Shown: positions 1 through 35,672 of the stretch, in pieces
Position numbering within the stretch: position 1 is the first letter of the stretch
How the letters are laid out: every line of letters starts with the position of its first letter
DNA from: a virus
Length of the DNA: 35,672 nucleotides
Strand: one strand, 5' to 3'
Virus record (IMG/VR): IMGVR_UViG_3300017744_000051
Coordinates: 1-35,672 of that record
The notes under the pieces: model-generated
Database searches by the model: none
Seen by the model: only the letters and a program-made list of their open reading frames with translations
Told to the model about the DNA's origin: nothing
Program-made: the position numbers and the translations under genes

Positions 1-408
1 CAAAGCATTATTATTATCAACTGAAGTTTGATTATGTCCAATTACAAATATTTGGTCTGTAGCACTATTATTAGAATCAATATTAATTCTTAATGAGTTT
101 GGAGTATTAAGAGCAAAGTTATGGCTTGTTCCAGTATTAATAACACCATTTGTTGTTAACGCACCTGTCATCGTTCCACCAGCTTTCGGTAAAGCTGCAT
201 TAGCTGTAGTATTCCCAGTTACTCCTGTTGCTATATCTGTATTGATTGAATTTGCTAACTTATCTGCGGTTACACTATCATCAGCAACATATAAAGTAGT
301 AATAGCATTTGTTGCTATTTCACGAGCTGTAATTGAGTTTTCAGCAATCTTTACGCCAGTTATTGCATTATCTGGTATATAGTCTGAATGTATTGTTGTT
401 CTTGTCAT
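1..408 (-). CDS. Tail fibre protein, N-terminal part (cut by left edge)
   Basis: This reading frame starts with ATG at 408, overlapping the TAA stop of the upstream 1662-residue fibre gene by one base (TAATG), and stays open to position 1, so its C-terminus lies outside the window. About 136 residues are visible. They begin MTRTTIHSDYIPDNAITG and continue with short repeats of the type NAITxxxIAxNSIT, the same roughly 10-residue fibre-shaft repeat seen in the preceding gene. A segment reading LPKAGGTMTGAL follows, a phrase I know from many phage fibre proteins. It is therefore probably another distal tail fibre or fibre-tip protein, translationally coupled to the gene before it. Its receptor-binding part cannot be seen. 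Confidence 0.8.
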   Translation of the reverse strand, partial: MTRTTIHSDYIPDNAITGVKIAENSITAREIATNAITTLYVADDSVTADKLANSINTDIATGVTGNTTANAALPKAGGTMTGALTTNGVINTGTSHNFALNTPNSLRINIDSNNSATDQIFVIGHNQTSVDNNNAL

Positions 409-3400
409 TATTTATTCTCCAGTTTAGCTTTTAGTTCATCTACTTGCCCAGAAAGTTCCTGTACTGCTTTTACTAATACTGCTGTTAAGTTGTCAGTAGT
501 CATTTTTAATTTTTCTTCTTCTTCGTCATCAATAATAACAGGATTTTTACCTTCAACCTCTAAAACTTCTTGCGCTAACAATCCATATTTAGTTCTGCCT
601 ACAGGATTTTTATCTTCCCTGTTGTCTGTAAATTTATAAGATACTGGCCTTAGTTCTTTTACTAAATCTAACCCTACAGGTATATTTTCTATTTCAGTTT
701 TGTCTCTAGCATCAGATACTACTGTCCAAGCAACTTGAATATAAGCATTTGTGGTATTTGAATAACCAACAACAACTCTGTTGCTTTGTGTGGTTAAAGT
801 AAAATGACTTTGTGCGTGTCCTGCCCTGTAACCTAAACAAGTATTATAACTTCCAGTTGTTGCACTTTTTGCAGATTCTAATCCTATACTTGTATTATAC
901 AAACCTGTAGTAAGTCCAACAGATGAATGATAACCGACAGCAGCATTTTGTTGTCCTGACGTACAATTACCTAATGCACCAACTCCCATTGCAGTATTAT
1001 AAGGTCCAGTACTGGTTGTCAAAGCATCTGCTCCAACAGCAGTACTATATGAAGATGTTGTATTTGCGTCTAAAGCACTTCTACCGACTGCTGTATTTTT
1101 AGTACCTGTAGTATTTAATACTAAAGCATTTACACCAACTGCTGTATTGTCATCTGCTGTCGTATTTTGGTTCAAAGCACCCGAACCTACAGCAACATTG
1201 TAATCGCCTGTTGAGTTTGTTGTTAATGTTACATTACCTAGACCTGTGTTTCCTGCTCCAGTTGTATTTGCTCTTAAAGCCTGATAACCAACAGCAGTAT
1301 TATAGTCTGCTGTACTATTATTAAGTAAAGCAGCCATACCAATTGCAACATTTTTTTCACCAGTTGTATTGTTAGCAAAAGTAGATAGGCTTGTAGAATC
1401 ATTACCACCGATAGCAACATTATATTGACCAGTTGTATTACTGCTTAATACATTGTAGCCAAGTGCTGTATTATTAACTCCAGTTGTATTTGCTCCTAAA
1501 GCATTAAAACCCATAGCAGTATTATTACTTGCAGTCGTATTAGCATCTAATGCTCCACTTCCATAACCACAATTATAACTTCCAGTAGTATTTGCACCTA
1601 ATGCACCAACTCCACTTGCAGTATTTTCTGTACCTGTAGTATTTAACCTTAAAGCGTAAAAACCCACCCCAGTATTATAAGCACCTGTAGTATTTGTTGT
1701 TAATGCGTCAAATCCTATTGCTGTTCCATAATTAGCTGTAGTATTAGCATCTAAAGCATTTGCTCCAACTGCAACATTTGCAGTACCTGTAGTGTTTTCT
1801 AATAAACAATTATTGCCAACTGCTGTATTTTCTGAAGCTGTCGTGTTGGCATCTAATGCTCTTTTTCCAATAGCTACATTATTTGAACCTGTTGTATTTG
1901 CTCGTAAAGCATTCCAACCCACAGCAACAAGTTGTGCTCCTGTTGTATTTGTTGATGCCGTATTATAACCTACCGCTGTGTTGTTATTTGCTGTGGTGTT
2001 TGATATTAAAGATGAATTACCTACTGCGATGTTTTGAGCACCTGTAGTGTTTGCTCCTAAAGAATCAACACCAATTGCTGTGTTGTAAGAAGCCGTTGTA
2101 TTAACATCAAGAGCATTTTTACCTATGGCTATATTATAAGTACCAGTAGTAATACCATTTAAAGCAGTATCACCAATTGCTGTATTATAAGTACCTGTTG
2201 TAATTGCCTGCATAGCGTAAGGACCAATAGCAATATTACTACGCCCAGTAGTAGTATTACCTCCTCTATGTGCATATGTACCTATTGCAATAGTATTACC
2301 TGCACTTGCATTTTTATATTGCATGGCTCCCATGCCTATACCGATGTCACCACTTGTAGTTCCTACATTACTATACATTGAATATGAACCAATTGCTATA
2401 GCTTCATTATGTACAGCATTTAATCCAGCATATAATCCGACAAAAGTATTTTCATAACCAGAAACAACAGATTTACCTGCCTGATAACCAACTGCAACAT
2501 TATTACTTTGTGTGGTCAAGGATTTTAAAGCCTCATAACCAACTGCAACATTATTATCTCCAGTTGTTAAACTTTCAAAAACATTTACGCCTAATCCAAC
2601 ATTTTTATTTGCATTATTAATTGTACCAGTGCTACTATCTCCAATCATTATAGAGTCTGTACCAAAGGTCTTGAATGTTGGACCTCCAGCTGGTGCATCT
2701 TCCCAAGCAATACCACTACCTGTTGATGTTAATAATTGACCGTCTGTTCCTTGTGCACCACTTACTTTAAAATTACCAGTATCAACTATTCCTGTAGTAG
2801 TAAAGTTTGCTGCATCTGGTATGACTCTTGCAAGTTCTGCTGTTGTAAGTGTGTTTTGTGCTATTTCTGAAGCTGCAATACTATTTCTAGCAATCTTTGC
2901 GCTATTGATTGCGTTGTCTGCTATATCGCCTGTTGTAATTGTTCCATCTACTATCTTTGCGGTAGTAACAGAACTATCTGCTAACTGGTCTGTTGTAATT
3001 TGAGCGTCATCAATATGCTTAGTAAGAATACTATTTTGTGCTATTTTTGTTGATGTTACTGCGTTTGTTGCTATAGCTGCAGTATTAACTGCGTTAGCTC
3101 CTACATCTGTTGTAGTTGTAACTTGACTTATAACAACTTCTATGTTGTTTGTTCCAGCTGGAGGTGCTGCATCTAATACAAGTGTAGACCCACTTACTGA
3201 GTATGTTGATTTAGGTTGGTATACACCACCTATAAATACATTTGTATTTTGTTCGTCTCCTGGACTAATTGTTAATGCACAGTTGTAAGGTGACCCTGCA
3301 CTAATTAGAGTATCTCCACTAAAGGTTTTTACTACTTGAGTTTTACCTGTAACTACACCACCAACTACATAAACTATAAGTTTTGTACTTGCTGAAGGTG

Positions 3401-5396
3401 CTGTACCAAATACTATATCTGAGCCACTTAGTGTGAAAGAATCTTGATTTTGATATACACCATCTATAAATGCTATTACATCTCCTTCGCCCGTTGGAGT
3501 TTGTCCTAGTGTAAAACTTGTTGTAGACCCGTTTGGACTAAATGAGTTATGTCCAAATGCTCCACCAGTTGTAATACTTTCTAGTACCATAAATTCTATT
3601 GTTGAGCCATTTGGAGGTGCTGCACTAAATGTTACTGTGGTGCCACTTGTACTATAACTTCCTTTCTGCTGATATACACCATCAATAAAAATCCATGTTA
3701 AATTTTCATTGGTTATCGTTATAGAAGTATTGAAAGCTACAGTTGAACCATTTCCACTCGCAGAATGCTGAGATATGGTCTGATTAAGACCGACCCCTCC
3801 GCCTCCTCCAGAACCACTAATAGTGACGTTCGAGGCAGATGTAACTCTACCGTCTGCATCAACAACTATCTGAGGAGATGCAGTTGCAGAACCATAAGTA
3901 CCTGCTGAAACTCCACTTGATGCTAGTTCACTTGAGCCTACTGCTCCAGTTGCTATCTTTGCTGCTGTGATTGCATTATCAGAAACTGAGCCTCCTCCTG
4001 TGCCGTTTGAAGCTGCAGTAATACGACCGTCCGCATCTACTGTTAAATCTGTGTTTGTATAAGACCCTGCACTTACTGATGTTGCAGCTAGTTCACTTGC
4101 TCCTACTGCACCTGTTGCTATGTGTGTAGCGGTTACAGCATTTGCTGATAGTCCTGTTGCAGTTGAGGTAAAAGTAATTGTATCAGTGCCTGCTGCAGTT
4201 GTTATAGACATTCCTGAGCCAGCAGCAAGAGTAAGAGTATCAGTATCTGAGTCTGCTACAACATCACTTTGTCCTGAAACTGATATTGTTTTGAAAACAT
4301 CTTCAGTACTGCCACTACCACTAGATACAGTACCAAAAGATAAAGTACCTGAGCCGTCTGTTTTTAATACTTGTCCACTACTACCATCAGTCACTGCTAG
4401 TTGGTCGATTGTAATTTGGTTATCGTCTATATGTCTAGTAAGAATACTATTTGATGCAATCTTAGTTCCGTCTATTGCATTGTCTGCTACATTGCCTGTT
4501 GCAATCGTATTTGCTGCTATCTTTGCTGAAGTTACTTGGGCGTTTGCTATATGTGCTGTATCTATTGAGCCATCTACATACTGGTCAGAATCAACTGAGT
4601 TTGCTGCCATTTTTGCAACTGTTACATTTGAATCTGCTATTTTTGCAGTTGTTACTTGACTAGCTCCAATATGACTAGTATCAATACTACCGTCAACGAG
4701 CTCGCTAGAGTCTACTGAGTTTGCTCCCATCTGTGTAACTGTTATACTCCCATCTGGTATTTGTACTGCTGTTACTGAGTTTTGTGCTATTTCTGATGAG
4801 CCTACTGCATTTGCCGCTATCTGAGTAGATGTTACTGCGTTTGCTGCTATTGCATCACTTGTTACGTATGCTGCAGAACCCATTAATCCATGAGCAGAAC
4901 ATTGGTAAAAAAGTATTTGGGGAGTTGTAGCGGAAACTACAATTTGAGTATAAGCACCTGAAGAACCTGGAGTTCCATTTGTAGTAACTCCTGTAGTATA
5001 TGCTGTTGTCTTTGCTGCTTCTAAATAGAATCTAAAAGGGTGTCCTGAGTTTGTGGAGTCTGCTTGGTCAAACTTATAAGTATTACCAGGAATCAATAAT
5101 AAGTAAGGAGATTCTAAACCTCCTATACTATAACCACTTGAACTTCCGTTTCCATGTTGAGGGTGAGCAGTAGTCTTTGTAATTACTTTTACTTCATAAG
5201 TTTGAGTTTCATGAGTAAATACACCTTGTGGCCCATACGCAAGTATACCGTCAGCTGAGTCGCTACCGTCTACGTGTTTACGAACGAAAACTTTTCCGTC
5301 TTTTGTGTTAATTGCAATTTCACCCAGCTCTAAATTACTAGTCGTAGGTTGATTGCCCGAGGTATTTGACCTCTTAAGTTGAATGGTCTGTGCCAT
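408..5396 (-). CDS. Giant tail fibre with cupredoxin-like, YadA-like repeat and S74 chaperone domains
   Basis: The 1662-residue product is a long trimeric host-binding fibre. Order of parts: an N-terminal attachment domain (1-56, IQLKRSNTSGN then LELGEIAINTKDGKVFVRK) like the Mtd-type N-domain of other fibres; a cupredoxin-like domain (about 66-178); roughly 10-residue shaft repeats such as IAANAVTSTQ (about 181-335, and again about 763-860); three beta modules carrying FIDGVYQ (about 551-757); about 35 units of 17 residues of the form NTAVGxxALxANTTGxx (932-1538); and a Peptidase_S74 intramolecular chaperone (1561-1662). Ser1561 and Lys1566 in SDARDK match the Ser/Lys dyad that releases the chaperone after folding in phage endosialidases, so cleavage before Ser1561 is expected. 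A coiled coil ends the chain (ELSGQVDELKAKLENK). The start has AAGGAG 8 bases upstream. Confidence 0.93.
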   Translation of the reverse strand: MAQTIQLKRSNTSGNQPTTSNLELGEIAINTKDGKVFVRKHVDGSDSADGILAYGPQGVFTHETQTYEVKVITKTTAHPQHGNGSSSGYSIGGLESPYLLLIPGNTYKFDQADSTNSGHPFRFYLEAAKTTAYTTGVTTNGTPGSSGAYTQIVVSATTPQILFYQCSAHGLMGSAAYVTSDAIAANAVTSTQIAANAVGSSEIAQNSVTAVQIPDGSITVTQMGANSVDSSELVDGSIDTSHIGASQVTTAKIADSNVTVAKMAANSVDSDQYVDGSIDTAHIANAQVTSAKIAANTIATGNVADNAIDGTKIASNSILTRHIDDNQITIDQLAVTDGSSGQVLKTDGSGTLSFGTVSSGSGSTEDVFKTISVSGQSDVVADSDTDTLTLAAGSGMSITTAAGTDTITFTSTATGLSANAVTATHIATGAVGASELAATSVSAGSYTNTDLTVDADGRITAASNGTGGGSVSDNAITAAKIATGAVGSSELASSGVSAGTYGSATASPQIVVDADGRVTSASNVTISGSGGGGGVGLNQTISQHSASGNGSTVAFNTSITITNENLTWIFIDGVYQQKGSYSTSGTTVTFSAAPPNGSTIEFMVLESITTGGAFGHNSFSPNGSTTSFTLGQTPTGEGDVIAFIDGVYQNQDSFTLSGSDIVFGTAPSASTKLIVYVVGGVVTGKTQVVKTFSGDTLISAGSPYNCALTISPGDEQNTNVFIGGVYQPKSTYSVSGSTLVLDAAPPAGTNNIEVVISQVTTTTDVGANAVNTAAIATNAVTSTKIAQNSILTKHIDDAQITTDQLADSSVTTAKIVDGTITTGDIADNAINSAKIARNSIAASEIAQNTLTTAELARVIPDAANFTTTGIVDTGNFKVSGAQGTDGQLLTSTGSGIAWEDAPAGGPTFKTFGTDSIMIGDSSTGTINNANKNVGLGVNVFESLTTGDNNVAVGYEALKSLTTQSNNVAVGYQAGKSVVSGYENTFVGLYAGLNAVHNEAIAIGSYSMYSNVGTTSGDIGIGMGAMQYKNASAGNTIAIGTYAHRGGNTTTGRSNIAIGPYAMQAITTGTYNTAIGDTALNGITTGTYNIAIGKNALDVNTTASYNTAIGVDSLGANTTGAQNIAVGNSSLISNTTANNNTAVGYNTASTNTTGAQLVAVGWNALRANTTGSNNVAIGKRALDANTTASENTAVGNNCLLENTTGTANVAVGANALDANTTANYGTAIGFDALTTNTTGAYNTGVGFYALRLNTTGTENTASGVGALGANTTGSYNCGYGSGALDANTTASNNTAMGFNALGANTTGVNNTALGYNVLSSNTTGQYNVAIGGNDSTSLSTFANNTTGEKNVAIGMAALLNNSTADYNTAVGYQALRANTTGAGNTGLGNVTLTTNSTGDYNVAVGSGALNQNTTADDNTAVGVNALVLNTTGTKNTAVGRSALDANTTSSYSTAVGADALTTSTGPYNTAMGVGALGNCTSGQQNAAVGYHSSVGLTTGLYNTSIGLESAKSATTGSYNTCLGYRAGHAQSHFTLTTQSNRVVVGYSNTTNAYIQVAWTVVSDARDKTEIENIPVGLDLVKELRPVSYKFTDNREDKNPVGRTKYGLLAQEVLEVEGKNPVIIDDEEEEKLKMTTDNLTAVLVKAVQELSGQVDELKAKLENK
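411..716 (-). other. Peptidase_S74 autocleaving chaperone domain
   Basis: These bases encode residues 1561-1662 of the giant fibre. The segment starts at SDARDKTEIENI and contains LRPVSYKF, YGLLAQEV and a final coiled coil, the usual S74 (intramolecular chaperone autoprocessing) layout. The family helps fibre trimers fold and then cuts itself off in front of the Ser of SD. Ser1561 and Lys1566 are five residues apart, as in the characterised endosialidase dyad. The mature fibre would thus end with the valines preceding Ser1561. Confidence 0.88.
783..2603 (-). repeat. About 35 tandem 51-bp units encoding YadA-head-like 17-residue repeats
   Basis: The segment encodes residues 932-1538 of the giant fibre. 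About 35 units follow one another, nearly all exactly 17 residues (51 bases), with consensus NTAVGxxALxANTTGxx. Outliers carry insertions (unit 7 has 20 residues, unit 24 has 23, unit 35 has 21). The NxAxGxxA core resembles the left-handed beta-roll of YadA/Hep_Hag trimeric adhesin heads, so a long trimeric beta-roll shaft or head is likely. The repeats are diverged at the DNA level, so this is an old expansion rather than a fresh satellite. Confidence 0.88.
3125..3745 (-). repeat. Three protein-level FIDGVYQ modules in the giant fibre
   Basis: Three consecutive modules of about 65-75 residues share the pattern FIDGVYQ, then SYSxSG, then FxxAPPxG, then a hydrophobic strand. They are seen as WIFIDGVYQQKGSYS, IAFIDGVYQNQDSFT and VFIGGVYQPKSTYS. 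They are probably beta-sandwich modules in the fibre. The third has FIGG in place of FIDG. Confidence 0.75.
4863..5201 (-). other. Cupredoxin-like domain within the giant fibre
   Basis: Residues 66-178 of the 1662-residue fibre read as a small beta-barrel. PGNTYKF is followed by GHPFRFYLE (His119) and, near the end, YQCSAHGLMGSA (Cys166, His169, Met172). Spaced His, then Cys-x2-His-x2-Met, is the ligand order of type 1 blue copper proteins such as plastocyanin, where the final loop is Cys-x2-His-x4-Met. Here the Cys-to-Met loop is shorter. Copper binding is an inference; the fold could be retained for structure only. Confidence 0.55.
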
Positions 5397-19355: not shown

Positions 19356-19741
19356 TATGCTTCATAACACCTTGTAAATGTTGCAGTTAAAGTATAAAAA
19401 CTGTCATAAGCCCAAGTTTGATTCCACTCTGAGCATAGTACTTTAATAGTTTCATTTCCGTTTGAATCATCAATTATCATTTCAAATTTATTTACTCCAC
19501 CTAAACTTTCAAAAAATGCAACTAAATCATCAATTTCTGCTTTCGGTCTTGTAGCAAAAGATACTCCCATAGTTTGTTGTAAATTGTTAATACCATCTGC
19601 TATTCTTTGACTATATCCATCGCCAAAAGTTGCCATGTGAACTTTTGGTGTTGAAGTTCTTGAAAATCCTTTATCAACAGGCACTGCTGCTGAAAATCCG
19701 CTTATATTTGAGCCACCACTTTGTCTTATTGCTGTTGCCAT
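19355..19741 (-). CDS. Minor tail protein (lambda M-like)
   Basis: The 128-residue product fits the lambda M family (about 109 residues). HMATFGDGYSQRIADGINN and the C-terminal YDSFYTLTATFTRCYEA are typical of this tail-tip protein, which joins the L-K-I-J initiator to the tube. Gene order tape measure-M-L-K-I-J is exactly lambda-like. Both ends overlap neighbours by one base in TAATG junctions, so it is translationally coupled. Confidence 0.88.
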   Translation of the reverse strand: MATAIRQSGGSNISGFSAAVPVDKGFSRTSTPKVHMATFGDGYSQRIADGINNLQQTMGVSFATRPKAEIDDLVAFFESLGGVNKFEMIIDDSNGNETIKVLCSEWNQTWAYDSFYTLTATFTRCYEA

Positions 19742-22700
19742 TATCTACTTAATACTCCCCCAGGTCTTTTCTCTCTTTGAATTGTTTCCATTACTGCTGC
19801 TTGTATTGCCATACCCAATGCTTTACCTTGTTGTCCATTTCCTGTTGAAGAAGTACCTCCACTTGCATCTACATTTATAACTACATTGTTGCCGCCACTG
19901 CCACCTTTCATGTCTACAGGAATACTTCTTCCATCTGGTAAAGGTACTACAGCTTCATTATGTTTTCCTTCTCCTACTAAGTACGTAGGCTCTGTTGCTA
20001 TTCCACCACTTCTGTAACCTGTGATTCCACCTTTTGCCATTGGAATAACTCCACCATCTGCCATTGGAACTCCAAACATAGCTGACATAATTTTCATTGT
20101 AGCCATCTGAGCTAAAACTTTAGCCATTGACTGCAGTATAGATTGAGCCATAGATTTAAATGCATCTTTTACAGACATTGTCCCTTCTATTACTCCTTGA
20201 ATACCTTTTAACATACCATCTTCAAAAGCTTTAACAGCCTCTACACCTATTTGTTTTGTTAGATTTAAATTATCCTCCATAACAGTTTTTTGTGCTTGTA
20301 ATACTGCTAAATTATTTTGCATATTTGTTAACTTGGTCTGCATATCTTCTGTATTGCCTTCTTCATTTTCAATTAACTTTTGTTGTAAAGTTATTTCTGC
20401 TGTAAGTTTGGCTATCTCTGCTATTTTTGTATTAATTTTTAATAAATCTGTTCTATGTTTTGCAAGTTTTGTATTACCTATTATACTTGTTTTTATTCCT
20501 GATGCTTTTGCAGCGTTTAAAGCTTTTTCTGCTGTTAGTGCTTGTGTAGAGTCAATTACTCCTCTTTGAGCTGTTGCTAACCCACTAAATTTTTTAAATC
20601 CTGCTTCTGTAGATTCATCTCCTGTGTATCCAGGCGCATTTCGAATTGCAGCAAATGCATCTCTTTGTGATTCTAATACTTTTAAATTTGATATTGCAGG
20701 ATTTGTAGTTCCTGTGAGTTTTCTTAAAGTATCGTCAGCACTTGAAGCATTCTGTTCAAGAAACTTAACTGCGTTACCTGCTAGTATTGTTGCAGATATG
20801 AACTCTTTTTCTTTATCTGTTAGGTCATCAAACTTTTCAGGCATTTTACCTACTAGAGTACTTAGCTCTGGAAATACTTCTGAGAGTGCCTGTACTGTTT
20901 TCATATATTCTGCTTCTTGTTCATCTACAAGTTTTAAAGCAGAAAAGTAATCAAGTTCAGCTTGTGTTGCTTTTCTTCTATCATCGATTTGTTTTTCTAC
21001 TACCAGACCTGTAAAGTTTGCTGAGCTTTCTGTTCTTTGATTAGTAACAATCATTCTTCCAGCTAATGTTGCATCGTCAGCAAGAGATTCTGGTCTTGAA
21101 AGAGCAGCTCTTCCTGCTGCAATATCGTCCATAGTTTTTCCTAATTGAGCTCCTACAAGTTTATTTGCATTATTTTTTAATATATTATTAAAAGTTTGAG
21201 TAAGTCCTTTATCTGCAACTTGCTGGTCTTTGCCCATCATTTCTCTTAGTTCTTTATTGAAATCTTTTTGTCTTTGTAATAGACCTTTCATAGAATTATC
21301 AGCTTCTTTACTTTTTTCTCCAAATAAACCTATTTTTTCTGCTCCAGCTTTTAATCCTTCAAAAGCTAGTGCGGCTATGCTTAGAAAACTTAAAAATCCA
21401 AAAGCTTTACTTACTACTCTCGCTGTCATAGCACTTGCTCTTTGTATCCCTATCATAGCTGATTGCCAGGTAGATTTTATCATAAGAGATGTTTTCTTAA
21501 AGTTTAATATTATATTTGTTGTAGTAGCTTTAACTGTAGTCATAAGAGGAACTTTAGTTGCTCTACTCATATCATTCATAGCTCTTACCCAATCCGCTTT
21601 AATTTTAGCGTTCATATTTTTAAAGATACCAATACCTTTTGTAGCTTGAGCTTTCATATTTGCAAGTTGTGCTTTACTTAATGTACCTGCTTGACCTGCT
21701 TGTATCTTAGCTAATGCTGAGCCTGGTTTTACGTCCATTCCTGCTGATAAGTTTCTTAATCTAGCCACAGGATTTGCTTGTGCTTTATTCATATTCATTT
21801 GCTGCAATCTAGCATATGCTTTAATTTTTCTAGAGGATTTTTCTACTGCTACATCGTGGGCTTGTAAAGAAGCTACTGCATTGGCTTCCCATTCATCAAA
21901 AGCAGGTAATATTGATTTTATAATTGGAAGTGCAAATATTGCTAAAGCTCCCGCTGCTGCATATACGTTATTTGCAAAGAAAGAAGCAAGTCCTTCTGCG
22001 GGGCCTGCTAACATCATTTTTAATTGGTTGGTTAAATCATCAAAGGCTTTTGCTAATTTATTTATTTGGTTGGTTTGAGGGTCCATTATTGCATTGATTG
22101 CATTGAACTTTTGTTCTACTTGTTCTAAAACTTCATTTGTTACAGCTTGTGTTCTTTGAAAAGCATTCAAAGAATCTTTACTTATATCTAAAGCACTTGC
22201 ATATTTTTTTGTTGCCGGGTCTAATCTTAGTATAATACCTAATTCATCTAGTAGTTCTGGTTCAGCTTTTGTTACACCTCTTACTAGTCTGTTGAAAGAA
22301 TCCGTAACATCTCTTCCTAATGCAATAGATACTGTTTTTGCGGCTGCACCTATTTTTTCTAATTGTTCAGGACTTAATCCTGCAGCTATACCAATAGCAG
22401 CTGCTTGAGCGGCGTCGCCGTATTTAATCTGAGCGTCTGTAGCTCTAATAATTGATTCTGTTAAAGTTTTGTACGCTACACCAGTTACAGCAGCATAATT
22501 AGATTGTCCTTCTTTTAATAACCTATAATCTGCAGCTGACTTTAAAAATCCAAATACTGCAGTAAGCGCAAAAACGTTTGCAGCTAAAGTTGCGTATGCT
22601 GGAACAAGAGAACCTGATATACCTCTTGACATGTTTGCAAAGTTTTTTGTTTGGTTAGCAGTCATGTTTATGCCTTTTTTAGTAGCATAAGTTACTTCAT

Positions 22701-22824
22701 CAGTTTTCTTTCCAACTTTATCTAAACTTTTACCTGCTTGTTTTGCATTTCCCGAAAATGCTTTAAGAGTACCATCATCACTTATCTTAAATACTAAATC
22801 TGCTAAATTAATCTTTTTTGCCAT
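19741..22824 (-). CDS. Tape measure protein
   Basis: The 1027-residue product sets tail length. It has a coiled-coil-prone N-terminus, several hydrophobic segments (LVPAYATLAANVFALTAVF near 73-91; AGALAIFALPIIKSIL near 290; AFGFLSFLSIAALAF near 478), and a C-terminal domain MADGGVIPMAKGGITGYRSG followed by YLVGEGKHNEAVVPLPDGRS, which is characteristic of lambda H-type tape measures. Using the usual rule of about 0.15 nm per residue, the tail would be around 150 nm. It follows the G/GT chaperone frame with a one-base gap, the standard order. The C-terminus may be processed, as in lambda H. Confidence 0.93.
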   Translation of the reverse strand: MAKKINLADLVFKISDDGTLKAFSGNAKQAGKSLDKVGKKTDEVTYATKKGINMTANQTKNFANMSRGISGSLVPAYATLAANVFALTAVFGFLKSAADYRLLKEGQSNYAAVTGVAYKTLTESIIRATDAQIKYGDAAQAAAIGIAAGLSPEQLEKIGAAAKTVSIALGRDVTDSFNRLVRGVTKAEPELLDELGIILRLDPATKKYASALDISKDSLNAFQRTQAVTNEVLEQVEQKFNAINAIMDPQTNQINKLAKAFDDLTNQLKMMLAGPAEGLASFFANNVYAAAGALAIFALPIIKSILPAFDEWEANAVASLQAHDVAVEKSSRKIKAYARLQQMNMNKAQANPVARLRNLSAGMDVKPGSALAKIQAGQAGTLSKAQLANMKAQATKGIGIFKNMNAKIKADWVRAMNDMSRATKVPLMTTVKATTTNIILNFKKTSLMIKSTWQSAMIGIQRASAMTARVVSKAFGFLSFLSIAALAFEGLKAGAEKIGLFGEKSKEADNSMKGLLQRQKDFNKELREMMGKDQQVADKGLTQTFNNILKNNANKLVGAQLGKTMDDIAAGRAALSRPESLADDATLAGRMIVTNQRTESSANFTGLVVEKQIDDRRKATQAELDYFSALKLVDEQEAEYMKTVQALSEVFPELSTLVGKMPEKFDDLTDKEKEFISATILAGNAVKFLEQNASSADDTLRKLTGTTNPAISNLKVLESQRDAFAAIRNAPGYTGDESTEAGFKKFSGLATAQRGVIDSTQALTAEKALNAAKASGIKTSIIGNTKLAKHRTDLLKINTKIAEIAKLTAEITLQQKLIENEEGNTEDMQTKLTNMQNNLAVLQAQKTVMEDNLNLTKQIGVEAVKAFEDGMLKGIQGVIEGTMSVKDAFKSMAQSILQSMAKVLAQMATMKIMSAMFGVPMADGGVIPMAKGGITGYRSGGIATEPTYLVGEGKHNEAVVPLPDGRSIPVDMKGGSGGNNVVINVDASGGTSSTGNGQQGKALGMAIQAAVMETIQREKRPGGVLSR

Positions 22825-27608: not shown

Positions 27609-29060
27609 TTAACTAGCTTTGTACTGTAGAGCCCACTTAGAAGTAGCGCCATCGATTAAATCAATGAAACCAAGTCTTTGTGAAGCAACTAGTACTGTTC
27701 TTTGTGAAGCTACTTCGTAGTCAGACTCGATGGTTACACCTCTGAGTCTTGGCATTACGTAGTTTCTAGCGTAAACTGCACATGCGTGGAATTTACTTGT
27801 TGCTGGAGTTGCGAACTCATCACATACGATTACTTTAGAACCGAATACTGAGCCAATTTCGCCACTGATTTTAGTAGCCATGTCACCAACTAAGTTAACA
27901 TCTTGGAATTCAGCATCTTCTAGTAACTCATAGTATCCTCTTTGTGATACAATGTAAACAACATCAGATGGGTTTAAACCATATTTGCCCATATTCTTTC
28001 TAGCAGCTAATAATTGTAAAGCTGTTAGTGAATCAGAAGCAAAAGCTGTTGATGACTGAGTTAAGTCTGAATCATTTCTTGCTAAGTGAAGTAGACCTTC
28101 GAATGTAGCACCTGAAGTACCATATACGCCGTCTGCATCGTCACCAGCTAAAATTGCGTTTTCAATACCTCTAGCATGAGACCTAACCATAGATTCTCTA
28201 ATTAGTGGTAAGATTGGCATGATTGCATCTTCTTCAGTTTCGTTACCTAAGTAAGATTGTGAAATAAGTTTTTTAGTTGAAAGTGTTCTTTCAGCCATCA
28301 CTATACCAGCACCGTTTGCAGGGTCATAAGCATCGCCTCTTGGGTCTAAGTTACCATGAGGTGCAGAACCTGAAGCGATTTGGTTAGCTGTAAATTCAGC
28401 ATAACCTGCATCTGGTAAGATAGGAAGAATTTGAGTTGCTGAAGTCATTTGGATTTCTCTAAATAACGGTGCAAGCACTAATTCATTCTGAATATCTCTT
28501 TCTACGTTTGTTGAAACAACTTGCTCAAAATCGGCTGATGATACATCAACACCTGACATTTGATTAACTTTCTGCATTACGTCTTTAGCGTAGTCAGAGT
28601 TCCAACCTTTACCTGTAGCTAAACCAGCAAATTTCGCATCAAGAATATCATTCTCGAACGCTTTTTTCCAGTCGCCATTTCCTTGTCTGTCTGAGAATAT
28701 TCTTTTTGACTCTCTCATTTTCATGATTTCATCAGACTTCTCAACTAAGTTAGACTCAAGCTCTTTGACTACTCTTTCAAGGTCTTCGTGCTTTTCGTTA
28801 ACTCTTGTCTCAACATCAGACATAAGCTTTTCAGCTCCAGTAATAACTGATGTTACTACTTGTTTTTGTTCTTCCTGCTTAGCTTCTTCTACAGCCTTCT
28901 GCTCAGCTTCTACAGCTGATTTCTCATCTGCATCGGCTTGTGCTTTAGCTTTTTGTTCTGCTTGTTGCATTGCAATTTTAGTTGCAGTATCTTCTGCTAC
29001 TTTCTTTGCGAATGCTTCAAGGTCAAAGCTCTCAGGAGTTATATTTTTGTCATTTGACAT
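27609..29060 (-). CDS. Internal-start product: scaffold plus major capsid protein (483 residues)
   Basis: An in-frame ATG at 29060 (Met197 of the polyprotein, MSNDKNITPESFDL) has GGAG six bases upstream. The product would lack the protease but keep the coiled-coil scaffold and the whole capsid domain. The start falls at the protease/scaffold border, as Nu3 does within lambda C. This would let the phage make many capsid subunits per protease. It is a prediction from sequence only. Confidence 0.62.
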   Translation of the reverse strand: MSNDKNITPESFDLEAFAKKVAEDTATKIAMQQAEQKAKAQADADEKSAVEAEQKAVEEAKQEEQKQVVTSVITGAEKLMSDVETRVNEKHEDLERVVKELESNLVEKSDEIMKMRESKRIFSDRQGNGDWKKAFENDILDAKFAGLATGKGWNSDYAKDVMQKVNQMSGVDVSSADFEQVVSTNVERDIQNELVLAPLFREIQMTSATQILPILPDAGYAEFTANQIASGSAPHGNLDPRGDAYDPANGAGIVMAERTLSTKKLISQSYLGNETEEDAIMPILPLIRESMVRSHARGIENAILAGDDADGVYGTSGATFEGLLHLARNDSDLTQSSTAFASDSLTALQLLAARKNMGKYGLNPSDVVYIVSQRGYYELLEDAEFQDVNLVGDMATKISGEIGSVFGSKVIVCDEFATPATSKFHACAVYARNYVMPRLRGVTIESDYEVASQRTVLVASQRLGFIDLIDGATSKWALQYKAS

Positions 29061-29648
29061 AGATTTCTCCGTTTCTTGGGATAATTCCCCTTTTGGCTGC
29101 TCGACTTCAACAGCATCTGCTGAATTAATTGAGTTAGCCTGATTGCTAAAAGTTTGCTTAAACTTATTGTATTCTTCCATGTTGTCAAATGATTTGGCAA
29201 CTGAAAAAGTAGCAGCTTGGTTACAGGGAACTGTAACTACTGATACTTCAAAAAGCTCTGCGTCCTTTATCCTATATCCGTCGGTTTCTGTCATATAGTC
29301 AGCGTCCTTAACTCTGAAACCAACAGAAAAAGCTCCAAGGACACCGTCTTTAATTAAATCTTTAATTTCACCAGCTGACTTTGAGATTCTAGCATTTAGC
29401 TCTAATCCTTTGTCGCCGACACCTATACCAGTAGCTCTACCGATAGGTCTGTCATAGTTGTGGTTAAATAGTATAACAGGGTTGTTTTTAAAATTGTCTA
29501 ATCCGCCTTTAAGCCATGCATCGTGTTCAACGATATCTCCTGCACGGTCTTTACCATTAGTACTAGCAAAACCTTTGATGTCTAAACCGCCATCATCGTT
29601 CTCTCCTAATGTTTTAAAAGTAGATGTTAGATTAAATAGTTTTTCCAT
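27609..29648 (-). CDS. Fused prohead protease, scaffold and HK97-fold major capsid protein
   Basis: The 679-residue polyprotein has three parts. Residues 1-150 are the HK97-type prohead protease (family U35): DIKGFASTNGKDRAGDIVE, catalytic-type His63 in LFNHNYDRPIG and Ser108 in GAFSVGFRV. Residues about 205-315 are a charged coiled coil (AEQKAKAQADADEKSAVEAE) acting as scaffold. Residues about 318-679 are the HK97-fold capsid protein (REIQMTSATQILPILPDAG, GDDADGVYGTSGATFEGLLH). Cleavage near residues 310-320 would release the mature capsid subunit. An internal start at residue 197 probably supplies protease-free subunits. The gene overlaps the 83-residue gene by one base (TAATG). Confidence 0.92.
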   Translation of the reverse strand: MEKLFNLTSTFKTLGENDDGGLDIKGFASTNGKDRAGDIVEHDAWLKGGLDNFKNNPVILFNHNYDRPIGRATGIGVGDKGLELNARISKSAGEIKDLIKDGVLGAFSVGFRVKDADYMTETDGYRIKDAELFEVSVVTVPCNQAATFSVAKSFDNMEEYNKFKQTFSNQANSINSADAVEVEQPKGELSQETEKSMSNDKNITPESFDLEAFAKKVAEDTATKIAMQQAEQKAKAQADADEKSAVEAEQKAVEEAKQEEQKQVVTSVITGAEKLMSDVETRVNEKHEDLERVVKELESNLVEKSDEIMKMRESKRIFSDRQGNGDWKKAFENDILDAKFAGLATGKGWNSDYAKDVMQKVNQMSGVDVSSADFEQVVSTNVERDIQNELVLAPLFREIQMTSATQILPILPDAGYAEFTANQIASGSAPHGNLDPRGDAYDPANGAGIVMAERTLSTKKLISQSYLGNETEEDAIMPILPLIRESMVRSHARGIENAILAGDDADGVYGTSGATFEGLLHLARNDSDLTQSSTAFASDSLTALQLLAARKNMGKYGLNPSDVVYIVSQRGYYELLEDAEFQDVNLVGDMATKISGEIGSVFGSKVIVCDEFATPATSKFHACAVYARNYVMPRLRGVTIESDYEVASQRTVLVASQRLGFIDLIDGATSKWALQYKAS

Positions 29649-29899
29649 TATTTTGCTTTCTTATCAACCTTTTTAGGGGTTGCTTTAGCGGCTTTAGGCG
29701 CTACTTTTGTTTCGAACATTTCTGGGTGGTTTACTTTGCACATCTGCTGCATTCTACCCCAAGAACCAAACGGTCTTTTTGCAATCATGAATCGCATTGG
29801 AGTATCTGTAGCTGCTTTGTATTCTGTAGCACTCATCATATGTCCTTTTTTGCCGAAGTACTCAGCAAGTTGTTTTAGTACGACTTTTTTATTCGCCAT
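29648..29899 (-). CDS. Small basic protein between portal and capsid genes
   Basis: The 83-residue product is not one I recognise. It begins MANKKVVLKQLAEYFGKKGH, has a middle IAKRPFGSWGRMQQMCKVNH and a lysine/alanine-rich tail (KVAPKAAKATPKKVDKKAK). It overlaps the portal gene end by 11 bases and the capsid polyprotein start by one base, so it is tightly coupled to head assembly genes. A head-assembly or DNA-associated role is possible; nothing more can be claimed. Confidence 0.65.
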   Translation of the reverse strand: MANKKVVLKQLAEYFGKKGHMMSATEYKAATDTPMRFMIAKRPFGSWGRMQQMCKVNHPEMFETKVAPKAAKATPKKVDKKAK

Positions 29900-31100
29900 T
29901 TATATTTTCCTCGTCTTCTGGTGGTCTACCACCCTCTTCAGGATTTGCTGCTGAGCCTGCTATATTTGCAGGTACTCTTGGTTCATCAAATCCTTCTATT
30001 GGTTCTTTACCTAAGGCTTCTCTTGCTTCGTTAGCACTGAATATTCCAGTATTAACTAATGTGGCATAGTAAGCTGCTTGGTCTCTTAATTCAGGTTGTA
30101 GAGCAGGTATATCTGTCACGTTCTCTGAAATTGAAAAACCAAAAAATCTTTCTAGTGCATATCCTAACTTTCTTGTTATTGGTAAGATAGTTTCAAGATA
30201 ATAAAGTCTATGGTTGGGTCTAATGTTTGCATTGTTCCCGCCGTCTAAAAGAATGGGTGGTATTCCCATTGCTTCTAAAATAATCTTTTCGTTTGATTTG
30301 ATTCCATCTTGGAAATCTAAATCTTTAAAACTTATTTCTGTTAAATTTTCTACTTCTAATCCGCCGTCTAAAAATAGTGGTCTTCTACCACCTGAGCTTG
30401 GGTTATATCGTTGTACCCATGCTTGTAACATTCTTTCTTTTATTTTCTCAGAAAGAGTATTTGGAGACTTCAGTACTAATCCTGGCACTGCTCCATTTTT
30501 AAAGAAGTTATCTTGAAAGTTTCTCATACTTCCAAGTAACTGCATTGTTCTAAATGCTGGTTTGAGTCTTGGGACTCCTCTATATATAGAATTAAAACTG
30601 TTTTCTTTTATGTGTATAATTTCATTTACACTATATTCAATACTGCTATCATATTCGTACTTTTCTATATAAGTATCTTTGTCAGTATATATTCTTACTT
30701 TATCTGCTGGTAAGTGATAGAGATGAGCTCCATCGTAGTAAATAAATATGTTTCCATCAATCAGTAAATCAATAATTAAGTTTCTTTTAAATGTATTGAC
30801 ATCTTGAAAAGGGTTTGGTTCGTGATTAAGTAGTAAATTTACTCTCGACCTACGAACATTCTTTACTACACTAGAAAATCCTTGTATGGCTTCACCAATG
30901 TTAAATGGAATCTCTGCAGTATCGTCAACAATCATGTTCACGGCTCGGTTTACTATTTCTAGTTGTTCATACGCATTTTTGTAGTTAGTAACTACCTCTC
31001 GAGAATCGACAGTCATGCCCTCGTTTCTGGAGATGACATACTGAGCCGGATTTATTTTTTCCTCTCTATTTATGCCTAAAAATCTATCATACCATGCCAT
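29889..31100 (-). CDS. Portal protein (HK97 type)
   Basis: The 403-residue product has the HK97-like portal pattern: NYKNAYEQLEIVNRAVNMIV at the start, INLIIDL-type strands (FKRNLIIDLLIDGNIFIYYD), then IHIKENSFNSIYRGVPRLKP, FFKNGAVPGLVLKSPN, ILLDGGNNANIRP and the terminal DEPRVPANIAGSAANPEEGG. Twelve copies form the ring at one capsid vertex through which terminase pumps DNA. It lies after the HNH gene with a 14-base overlap and before the capsid genes, the normal order. Length is close to HK97 gp3 (424). Confidence 0.92.
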   Translation of the reverse strand: MAWYDRFLGINREEKINPAQYVISRNEGMTVDSREVVTNYKNAYEQLEIVNRAVNMIVDDTAEIPFNIGEAIQGFSSVVKNVRRSRVNLLLNHEPNPFQDVNTFKRNLIIDLLIDGNIFIYYDGAHLYHLPADKVRIYTDKDTYIEKYEYDSSIEYSVNEIIHIKENSFNSIYRGVPRLKPAFRTMQLLGSMRNFQDNFFKNGAVPGLVLKSPNTLSEKIKERMLQAWVQRYNPSSGGRRPLFLDGGLEVENLTEISFKDLDFQDGIKSNEKIILEAMGIPPILLDGGNNANIRPNHRLYYLETILPITRKLGYALERFFGFSISENVTDIPALQPELRDQAAYYATLVNTGIFSANEAREALGKEPIEGFDEPRVPANIAGSAANPEEGGRPPEDEENINGE

Positions 31101-31477: not shown

Positions 31478-31507
31478 ATTATACCAAAAAGTCACATATA
31501 TTGTCAA
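31478..31507 (-). promoter_or_regulatory. Sigma70-type promoter P2 for the head and tail genes
   Basis: On the minus strand TTGACA (31507-31502) and TATAAT (31483-31478) are perfect consensus boxes with an 18-base spacer. The flanks TTCTTGACA and CTTTTTGGTATAATT are shared with P1 and P3. The promoter lies between the terminase stop (31530) and the HNH start (31458), inside one of the rare gaps, and should drive the long head-tail unit. Confidence 0.87.
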
Positions 31508-31529: not shown

Positions 31530-32831
31530 CTAAAAGGTAGTAATTGAGGTTTCAAATGTATACAGGGCATATCGTATAGCATCTGCCATATGCGATGACC
31601 CATCATGTTTTGGTTTCTCTCTCATTAAATTAGGGTTTGGGTCCCATTGATATTGGTCTAAACATGAGAGAGATTCTTTGCATTGCTGGTCAACAAGTAA
31701 TGTATCATTGTCAACAATTCCACCAACAAATCCTATTCCATCTAGTACTGATTTTTTCGCATTAATAGTAGTAATGTCATAGTTTTGTGCAAAGTCAAAT
31801 CTAGTTTGTTGAGCAGCAGAATCAATATAAATATAATCTATGTCCCATTTATGTATAAGTTTTTGAATCTGTGCTGCGTGTTGTTCAGTTGTTTTTTCAG
31901 CATCTAAATATTCGTCTACTAAGTAGTAGTTCTTTGAGTCCCAGTCATAAGCAATTACACAAAATGCTGTAGGGTCTTTATACCCGACATCAAGTCCTGC
32001 GAATACGTCCATCTTGCTAGTATCAAAGTCTTTTAAGTTCATGATACATTTTTCATGATTAAATGCCCATATTTGTCCTTCGTAGACATTAAAGTCTGCC
32101 ATGTATTCTTGAGCAAACTCAGCTTCAGACATAGTTTTTCTTGCTTCTACAATATCTACTTCTGACACACGAGGGTTTTCATGGTAAGTAGCTTTTATAG
32201 CACACCACTCTGGAAACTCGTCACTAAATCCTCTATAGTAAAACTCTGCAAAATAGTTATTTCTACCCCTTGGAGTAGATATAAAGATTGCTTTAGAGTT
32301 TTCTTTATCTAGTGTAGGTCTCAGTGCTACATTGAAAGCATCTCTACCATCTGTTAATGCTGCTTCATCAAATATAATTAAATCATAACTTCTACCAACT
32401 ACTGAGTCGACCTGATTGATTGAACCCATACTAATAGTAGAACCGTTTGATAGTTCTATAACTTTATCTTTTGCGTTATCTTTTGTAACTTCTAAATCAA
32501 AATGTTTTATTAAGTTTCTTTGTAAGTCAAATGATATTTGTGATAGTGAGTAGTTAGGTGACATAAGTAGTACATTAGCTCCTGGAACTAAACATACTAG
32601 TTGTCCTATGATGTTTGATATATAAGTTTTTCCCTGCCTCCGAGATACGGCTGCAGTAACGAAACGATATTTGGGACTGTTGATAGCATTGATGATTGCT
32701 TTTTGAGATGAGTTAGGTTCTATACCTAATAAGTCCATATAGCCCTCTATAGGTAGCTTTATGAATCTGCTGTCTTGCGGATAGTCCATCAGGTAATCTG
32801 GGACTATATCTGTTCTGCTTATCTCAATCAA
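31530..32831 (-). CDS. terL: Terminase large subunit
   Basis: The 433-residue packaging motor contains an ATPase with a Walker A variant SRRQGKT (63-69), Walker B LIIFDE (151-156, catalytic Glu156) and the coupling motif ISTPRG (184-189). An RNase H-like nuclease follows with acidic residues Asp281 (GLDVGYKDP), Asp337 (YIYIDSAA) and Asp417 (HMADAIRYAL). This is the Terminase_6 type. The first codon of the frame is TTG at 32831, overlapping the upstream TGA, with no ribosome-binding site, so translation seems coupled. The next in-frame ATG (Met15) is possible but would remove residues before the ATPase. Confidence 0.94.
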   Translation of the reverse strand: MIEISRTDIVPDYLMDYPQDSRFIKLPIEGYMDLLGIEPNSSQKAIINAINSPKYRFVTAAVSRRQGKTYISNIIGQLVCLVPGANVLLMSPNYSLSQISFDLQRNLIKHFDLEVTKDNAKDKVIELSNGSTISMGSINQVDSVVGRSYDLIIFDEAALTDGRDAFNVALRPTLDKENSKAIFISTPRGRNNYFAEFYYRGFSDEFPEWCAIKATYHENPRVSEVDIVEARKTMSEAEFAQEYMADFNVYEGQIWAFNHEKCIMNLKDFDTSKMDVFAGLDVGYKDPTAFCVIAYDWDSKNYYLVDEYLDAEKTTEQHAAQIQKLIHKWDIDYIYIDSAAQQTRFDFAQNYDITTINAKKSVLDGIGFVGGIVDNDTLLVDQQCKESLSCLDQYQWDPNPNLMREKPKHDGSSHMADAIRYALYTFETSITTF

Positions 32832-34906: not shown

Positions 34907-35131
34907 TTACATTGACAATAATTGCCAAATAATGCCGCCTGCTGCAGCTAATCCTGTACTAGTAGCTCCTATTAGTATAGTTTCTAATCTAGTGATACTT
35001 CGGTCTTGTCTATCAAACCGAATTCCGCTGTCAGCGTCAATTTTCTCTATTCGAGTAAATATGGTTTTCCATCGTTCTGCGCACACAGCCTCGTGTTGAG
35101 CTAGTTCTGCAGCCACATCGTTAACGTCCAT
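34907..35131 (-). CDS. Small membrane-anchored protein, holin/XhlA-like in layout
   Basis: The 74-residue product has a helical cytoplasmic part (VAAELAQHEAVCAERWKTIF followed by TRIEKIDADSGIRFDRQDRS) and a single C-terminal membrane helix (LETILIGATSTGLAAAGGII then WQLL). This layout is that of haemolysin XhlA-type or holin-associated proteins. It is the first gene of the P1 unit, with AGGGAG six bases before the ATG. No endolysin is visible beside it, so a lysis role is only a suggestion. Confidence 0.6.
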   Translation of the reverse strand: MDVNDVAAELAQHEAVCAERWKTIFTRIEKIDADSGIRFDRQDRSITRLETILIGATSTGLAAAGGIIWQLLSM

Positions 35132-35176
35132 TATTTTCTCCCTTAAACACCCGAAATTATTTTTTCGTATGAAGAA

Positions 35177-35205
35177 ATTATATCAAAAGTGAAGAAGAAA
35201 GTCAA
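35177..35205 (-). promoter_or_regulatory. Sigma70-type promoter P1 for the small-protein and terminase unit
   Basis: On the minus strand TTGACT (35205-35200) and the perfect TATAAT (35182-35177) are 17 bases apart. The flanks TCTTGACT and CTTTTGATATAATT match those of P2 and P3. The -35 box begins four bases after the cyclase stop codon, so the cyclase gene and this promoter are packed together. The leader to the first ATG (35131) is about 40 bases. Confidence 0.82.
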
Positions 35206-35208
35206 GAC

Positions 35209-35672
35209 TTATTTTTCGATGGTATATATTTTAACTGGCTCGGACTTTCCTTTTACCGTAACTTCATCTAAAAATTTATAATCAAATCCGTCTACTAAAC
35301 TGTGTTCAGATATGATTAAATCTACATCATAGTTTTTGCAACTAGATTCTAACCTAGCAGCGAGATTAACAGCATCACCCAACACGCTGTAATCAAAACG
35401 ACTACTACTGCCGAAGTTTCCAACCACGCAGGGACCTGTATTAATTCCCGCTCCTGTATTAATCGTGTCCAAGCCTTCTTCTCTGAATCTTTCATTTAGT
35501 TCTCCTAGTGCTATTCTCATTTCTATAGCTGCTTCTGTAGCTTTTCGTTCTTGTTCTTCTATATCTAAAGGAGCGTTCCAAAAAGCCATAATGCAATCTC
35601 CCATATACTTATCGATAGTACCACCGTGTTTTAGTATAATTTCTGTTTGGTTGTCTAAAAATCGATTTATTA
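35209..35672 (-). CDS. Class III adenylate/guanylate cyclase catalytic domain (5' end cut by window)
   Basis: The frame is open to the right edge. About 153 residues are visible, from INRFLDNQTEIILKHGGTID through KYMGDCIMAFWNAP to the stop. Present are the second metal-binding Asp and the adenine-selecting Lys (DKYMGD), the dimer-interface region GAGINTGPCVVGNFGSSSRF, and the transition-state Asn and Arg of VNLAARLE. The position usually Asp or Thr before them is Ser (YSVLGD). The first metal Asp (DIxGFT) would lie outside. Key residues imply an active enzyme making a cyclic nucleotide, most likely cAMP. It most resembles bacterial CHASE2-linked cyclases. N-terminal sensor domains, if any, cannot be seen. 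An in-frame ATG at 35604 lies inside the conserved motif and is not the start. Confidence 0.9.
   Translation of the reverse strand, partial: INRFLDNQTEIILKHGGTIDKYMGDCIMAFWNAPLDIEEQERKATEAAIEMRIALGELNERFREEGLDTINTGAGINTGPCVVGNFGSSSRFDYSVLGDAVNLAARLESSCKNYDVDLIISEHSLVDGFDYKFLDEVTVKGKSEPVKIYTIEK

Follow-up and report, generated by a model that had tools for sequence, protein, structure and literature searches.

Genes of the curli (type VIII) secretion system (T8SS) have been described, together with genes for FecR, a histidine kinase, and an adenylate cyclase, in HTVC023P-type podoviruses and T4-like myoviruses, and transfer of the T8SS module between podoviruses and myoviruses has been reported (Wittmers et al. 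2022, PMC9599517). In that account, in which we found no mention of CHASE2, the cyclase is called frequent in T8SS modules, and FecR and the cyclase are stated to be absent from bacterial curli operons. Curli pore genes have also been found in pelagimyophages and in phage Melnitz, for which sibling capture or lysis control have been proposed (PMC7029224, PMC9004378). Two cellular systems bear on the locus described here. S. meliloti CyaD1, a bacterial CHASE2 cyclase, produces cAMP constitutively when its CHASE2 domain is removed (PMC5498481), indicating that CHASE2 gates the enzyme. In the Burkholderia BiofilmReg operon, which is linked to biofilm formation, a LysM-FecR protein is encoded together with a CHASE2 histidine kinase (PMC5192318); this operon resembles our locus in having a FecR-domain protein beside a CHASE2 receptor, but its output is a histidine kinase and it contains no curli genes.

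We analyzed a whole IMG/VR record (IMGVR_UViG_3300017744_000051), a linear fragment of 35,672 bp hereafter called the window, the main genes of which lie on the minus strand (Table 1). Our reading, to which we assign a probability of about 60%, is that a CHASE2-class IIIb adenylate cyclase ends the curli cassette of a T5-like marine siphovirus, in which FecR and CHASE2 would sense and cAMP would signal to the host. The cassette has the same components in the same order as the pelagiphage T8SS module (PMC9599517), i.e. CsgF, CsgG, a curlin repeat protein, FecR, and adenylate cyclase, and is likewise marine. It differs in that its carriers are T5-like siphoviruses, in that it lies between terS and terL, often with IscU/IscA alongside, and in that the cyclase is not only frequent but present in every locus with enough sequence. 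To the published picture we add the siphovirus carriers, the invariant linkage, the CHASE2 architecture, a bacterial operon, and a conserved promoter at the cyclase stop codon. A limited literature search returned no paper on a curli-FecR-cyclase cassette in siphoviruses, which does not prove that none exists.

Table 1. Features of the window, with the evidence for each
Feature	Position	Strand	Evidence
CHASE2-class IIIb cyclase, 3' part (153 aa + stop)	35209..35670	-	Open at contig end; relatives 76-93% identical
Base-pocket Lys21 codon	35608..35610	-	Residue reading; alignment with CyaB
Second metal Asp25 codon	35596..35598	-	Invariant in full-length viral relatives
Ser95 codon, class IIIb position	35386..35388	-	Residue reading; alignments with relatives and CyaB
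Transition-state Asn102 codon	35365..35367	-	Residue reading
Transition-state Arg106 codon	35353..35355	-	Residue reading
Promoter P1, TTGACT-N17-TATAAT, extended -10, sigma-70-type	35177..35205	-	Kept in 80/80 loci
Hairpin near 5' end of P1 transcript	35152..35167	-	Differing yet self-complementary arms in many relatives
74-aa protein, one membrane helix, next gene past cyclase	34907..35131	-	Found in 79/80 loci
Terminase large subunit, T5-like	31530..32831	-	phrog_2 2.8e-46; ~49% to T5-like phages
Portal protein	29889..31100	-	phrog_12 1.2e-69
Fused head protease and major head protein	27609..29648	-	phrog_80 and phrog_617
Tape measure protein, marks long-tailed phage	19741..22824	-	phrog_3779 5.2e-40

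The contig end truncates the cyclase, so that its C-terminal 153 residues are what the window holds. The only Pfam match of this fragment is to Guanylate_cyc (PF00211, 2.9e-15, profile positions 55-182), and because that match begins at profile position 55, the window lacks the N-terminal third of the catalytic domain. Among PHROGs, the fragment matches phrog_35576 (1.9e-49, positions 460-619 of 681). The first-pass annotation, made from the window's letters, had called the gene a class III cyclase with its metal Asp, adenine-selecting Lys, and transition-state Asn and Arg in place, and we could indeed read all four (Asp25, Lys21, Asn102, and Arg106). In addition, Ser95 occupies the site of the base-selecting Asp of class IIIa enzymes, which is the class IIIb pattern; this serine (S535) is nearly invariant in the relatives, and CyaB has a Thr there. 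The first metal Asp lies beyond the end of the window. In 22 full-length viral sequences it is invariant (D419 of the related locus L048), as are the second metal Asp, the Lys, and the Arg, the Asn being nearly so. A Lys/Ser pattern is typical of class IIIb, with ATP as the predicted substrate. Judging from these residues, the gene is a class III nucleotidyl cyclase of subclass IIIb, and the Lys/Ser pair favors ATP and hence a predicted adenylate cyclase.

The 459-bp fragment is under purifying selection as assessed by the Nei-Gojobori method, with dN/dS of ~0.05 (0.04-0.09 against its nearest relatives) and a median of 0.11 across 355 moderately diverged pairs. This selection, and the retention of metal, base, and transition-state residues across lineages, argue against a reading in which the cyclase fold has a role only within the receptor, or no longer forms a product, and the complex acts structurally or regulates by contact. 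Activity is predicted from residues alone and the N-terminal part of the window's enzyme is unreadable, which leaves some room for such a reading, but we regard it as very improbable.

The architecture of the protein was read from its relatives, which are ~593 aa long at full length. Their N-terminal region contains a CHASE2 domain (PF05226, 5.8e-30 to 8.1e-41), before which the window is cut; the L048 cyclase (L048 8681-10462), for example, displays CHASE2 (5.8e-30) and Guanylate_cyc (1.4e-20) matches in Pfam. An AlphaFold model of the full-length cyclase (mean pLDDT 87, 32 sequences) consists of an N-terminal helix (residues 2-34), a mixed alpha/beta domain (39-290), three more long helices (300-318, 322-345, and 353-385), and a cyclase fold (409-591). 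With Foldseek, the catalytic part matched CyaB, CyaC, and Cya2 (TMt 0.79-0.87), and the whole protein matched a single protein of an uncultured phage, annotated as "predicted transmembrane sensor domain" (TMq 0.92). When a profile of the full-length relatives was compared with solved structures, class III catalytic domains were recovered, CyaB (3R5G) and CyaC being among the best. CHASE2 is an extracytoplasmic sensor domain. The gene thus encodes a membrane receptor, composed of a periplasmic sensor, membrane helices, and a cytosolic catalytic domain, and not a soluble enzyme. The fragment in the window is, as assessed by Pfam and AlphaFold on relatives, the C terminus of a CHASE2 transmembrane receptor cyclase and not a stand-alone cyclase. 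Bacterial CHASE2 cyclases such as CyaD1, and the class IIIb enzymes CyaB and CyaC, share its domain order and catalytic motifs, but they are cellular and usually without nearby curli genes. HTVC008M (KC465899) and Melnitz (MZ577098) also encode a protein with CHASE2 and a class III cyclase past curli and FecR-type genes; compared with the window fragment, the identity is 47% for HTVC008M and 42% for Melnitz. These two phages differ in being T4-like myoviruses whose terminase is not beside the cassette, and the Melnitz protein has a C-terminal extension.

Reading the N terminus and the adjoining genes, as the first-pass annotation had advised, was possible through relatives, and it is there that the curli cassette appears. 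In L048, the gene order is TerS (phrog_3802, 6.3e-41), IscU, IscA, two small membrane proteins, CsgF, CsgG, a curlin-repeat protein, a FecR protein, three small proteins, the cyclase, P1, further small proteins, TerL, HNH, portal, and head protein, with Pfam matches for CsgF (1.1e-17), CsgG (2.4e-47), the curlin repeat (1.4e-4), and FecR (1e-11). CsgF, CsgG, curlin, and FecR genes are found upstream of the cyclase in all 20 siphovirus-lineage loci with >4.5 kb of upstream sequence, and the same cassette is upstream in all 34 loci with >6 kb upstream in a second set, which was retrieved with an HTVC008M-type alignment. As these loci were found via the cyclase, the counts show that the cyclase is tied to the cassette. 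In the reverse direction, a scan of IMG/VR with CsgG found the cyclase wherever the contig extends far enough, although in L195 in broken frames. The cyclase is thus the last gene of a phage-carried curli cassette in every relative that can be read. Since the window stops inside the cyclase, we infer its own cassette from relatives that are up to 93% identical (L002 and L005).

Several features of the cassette region vary or are of uncertain nature. IscU and IscA-like Fe-S genes separate terS from the curli genes (L048 3190-4216, and relatives), and in L012, L014, and L020 IscU sits past the cyclase instead. Two related proteins of 84-97 aa precede csgF (L048 4216-4747, phrog_18771 in L048; L082 1576-2138). 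Pfam finds no histidine-kinase domain in the two genes before csgF in L048 and HTVC008M; these small genes occupy the place given for the published histidine kinases, and the published genes may be other ones. One stop interrupts the cyclase frame of L166 (6904-8730), and L195 has short, broken frames for csgG, fecR, cyclase, and terminase alike; either assembly errors or decay would explain this. A 15-bp palindrome, GCATCRTRAYGATGC (once GTATCATAATGATAC), precedes the promoter of the terS/cassette unit, with its center ~22.5 nt upstream of the -35 box (L042 3031-3045 and equivalents; 51415-51429 in G425, a complete relative). It is found at 13 of 16 loci, vs 1 of the 27 other promoters compared and 5.7% of shuffled sequences, and occurs once in the 105-kb genome of G425. 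It could be an operator or a packaging-related site.

The border between the cyclase and the terminase/head unit was compared across 80 related loci, kept from at least 600 IMG/VR matches and 76-93% identical to the fragment. In the window, 3 nt separate the cyclase stop codon (35209-35211) from the -35 hexamer of P1, in line with the four-base step first reported, and further promoters of the P1 kind, likewise noted at the outset, are present at 31507 (between terminase and HNH) and 8731. A P1-type promoter (TTGACW-N15-19-TATAAT) lies 3 nt past the cyclase stop in 78 of the related loci and 10 nt past it in two, and because it occupies that place in all 80, its placement is not due to chance. 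Terminase is encoded downstream on the same strand in 77 of the 80, and the remaining three end within 3.5 kb of the cyclase. Promoter matches are found before the cassette and after the cyclase stop, but rarely between these points on the coding strand. It is therefore probable that the cyclase ends the transcription unit of the cassette and that P1 opens the terminase/head unit. The direct link to a late operon that had been proposed is thus correct in that the cyclase adjoins that operon through a conserved promoter, but not in the sense of a shared unit, as the cyclase probably ends the preceding one and P1 starts the next. Just past P1, the arms of the hairpin differ between the window and its relatives (L002-L081), e.g. 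TGTGG/CCACA, GAAC/GTTC, AGTTGA/TCAACT, and GTGTA/TACAC. The mean folding z of this region is -1.1, vs -0.6 in a control stretch, which suggests that a 5' stem-loop on the P1 transcript is conserved.

These findings also settle whose gene this is. The position of the gene at a contig end, and the frequency of its family in bacteria, could have pointed to a host fragment, a prophage edge, or a chimeric contig, which the first-pass annotation had raised as the alternative while doubting that the gene was an unrelated host fragment. That doubt was justified. Across 80 loci that come from different metagenomes, the same junction is seen with promoter (80/80) and terminase (77/80) preserved, and the gene is internal in the complete 105-kb relative. 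We consequently rejected a host or chimeric origin, the chance of which is negligible; the cyclase is a true phage gene.

The carrier itself, as read from its structural genes, is a long-tailed, T5-like (Demerecviridae-related) siphovirus. Its identity to T5-like isolates is ~49% for TerL, ~40% for the portal, and ~33% for the major tail (tail tube) protein, and PHROG matches identify additional tail genes (tail terminator, minor tail proteins, and a J-like fibre). On the minus strand, 408-5396 encodes a tail fibre-like protein of 1662 aa in which a repeat (51-nt period) occurs ~14 times. The relative G425 has a contig of 105,272 bp whose ends overlap by 78 bp, so that it is probably a complete genome. 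In G425, the cassette lies between terS and terL with the cyclase internal, and endolysin, DNA polymerase, and ribonucleotide reductase are encoded. No tRNA genes were found in the window or in this 105-kb relative.

How unusual such a gene is depends on where one looks. Only 8 of 50,697 sequenced phage records match the cyclase, and at least one of these is apparently a bacterial contig, whereas at least 600 stretches in IMG/VR match it. The initial description of the gene as very unusual in tailed phages thus applies to sequenced isolates but not to uncultivated marine phages, and although it is rare in isolates a phage cyclase is not in itself new, having been described in a curli setting (PMC9599517). 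Two records labeled "Acinetobacter phage MD-2021a" that match the cyclase were set aside. The one that we opened, L084 (CAKLQH020000011.1), looks like a bacterial chromosome, with mfd, hscA, hscB, and iscU surrounding the cyclase.

Three groups emerge when 83 cyclases are placed in a maximum-likelihood tree (quick search, with SH-aLRT as the sole support measure): one of the 16 siphovirus sequences (support 99), one of most remaining phage sequences (95), and one of 33 of the 34 cellular sequences (100). The divergent phage sequences L187 and L188 fall on the siphovirus side (support 89). The single cellular exception is L085, a contig from a Caulobacteraceae MAG, in which CsgF, CsgG, two curlin genes, FecR, and a CHASE2 cyclase follow one another in the same order as in the phage cassette. 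It differs in its second curlin gene, in its cellular flanks (glycosyltransferase, peptidase, and TonB-receptor genes), and in its GC content, which drops from 63-69 to 52% at the left border (51-58% in the right flank). Its cyclase is 44% identical to the phage cyclase. The operon may be an island, and an MAG contig can be misassembled. A close CsgG match was found in 6 of 385 genomes of the same class, in loci of ~3.7 kb that are too short for the cyclase.

In the mechanism that we propose, the cyclase would be anchored by its membrane helices in the inner membrane of the host, its CHASE2 domain facing the periplasm and its catalytic halves pairing in the cytosol. The exported FecR protein, with its curlin-like repeat end, would be the partner of CHASE2 and report assembly of the curli pore or fibre; the state of CHASE2 would set cAMP output, and cAMP would act on host cAMP receptors. 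We propose FecR as the partner because of its co-retention in the phage cassette, its proximity to related cyclases in cells, and the BiofilmReg pairing. Among 80 cellular loci that carry related cyclases, 14 have a FecR gene within ~8 kb, when approximately one is expected (~1 per Mb, from 104 matches in 34 genomes of that set; FecR was part of the reason for choosing these genomes, so the expectation is if anything too high). By eye, the FecR proteins of L048 and L085 appear to terminate in curlin-type repeats. Clumping was absent in one study of the curli phage Melnitz (PMC9004378), which makes it possible that no fibre forms.

Host receptors are the proposed target because phages almost never carry one. 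A cNMP-binding domain (PF00027) was found in 1 of 40 distinct cassette-bearing phage records, which included HTVC008M, Melnitz-3, and the 105-kb siphovirus. This single match is in L193, a 61.7-kb viral contig (6767-7417, minus strand), where a 216-aa protein with a cNMP-binding domain (1.2e-20) and a hydrophobic C terminus is encoded divergent from csgF. The idea of a phage-coded cAMP receptor was rejected, the L193 protein being an isolated case for which no viral contig has a relative. Should the signal be cAMP, its receptor is expected to be the host's own. Near the promoter upstream of the cassette, a CRP-type site (TGTGA-N6-TCACA) matches with 2.9 mismatches vs 3.3 in shuffles, which is not clearly better.

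The same observations bear on two other functions. With catalytic residues intact and 39 of 40 records lacking a phage-coded receptor, so that the target must be the host's, the enzyme might simply supply free cAMP that alters host catabolite control or nucleotide-based defence, with no functional tie to curli. Neither a membrane sensor domain nor a constant place in the curli cassette would be needed for this, yet both are kept, and we find such a role improbable. Beside the cyclase, the neighbors of which are curli and packaging genes, no CBASS effector and no Pycsar effector of the PF00027 type was found. Flooding of catabolite control or feeding of these defences, which the first-pass annotation had suggested, is accordingly not the natural first reading given the strict tie to the curli cassette. 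Somewhat better placed, although still unlikely, is a role in setting when lysis or release occurs, with the curli pore and cyclase forming a late lysis or envelope-opening switch triggered by cAMP or by the state of the pore. Lysis control by the curli pore has been proposed (PMC9004378), the gene next downstream of the cyclase encodes a small membrane protein in 79 of 80 loci, and the L193 protein with its hydrophobic C terminus adjoins csgF. However, the endolysin of the complete relative is encoded elsewhere on the opposite strand, the L193 protein has no viral relative, and the curlin-repeat and FecR genes, which a pure lysis switch would not need, are always kept. We therefore favor the sensory reading, in which FecR and CHASE2 would gate a cAMP signal to the host.

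The function of phage curli cassettes is a known puzzle. The presence of a gated receptor cyclase in every readable cassette, in siphoviruses as well as in HTVC008M-type phages, means that signaling, and not mere secretion, needs explaining, and the bacterial operon of L085 provides a cellular reference for the cassette. We tentatively suggest, as a possibility that falls well short of an even chance, that several marine tailed-phage lineages carry their own entire surface-sensing circuit, in which they would place a curli pore and fibre on the infected cell, watch it through periplasmic contact between FecR and CHASE2, and relay the outcome inward as cAMP. If this is true, infection or host behavior would be adjusted to contact or aggregation outside the cell.
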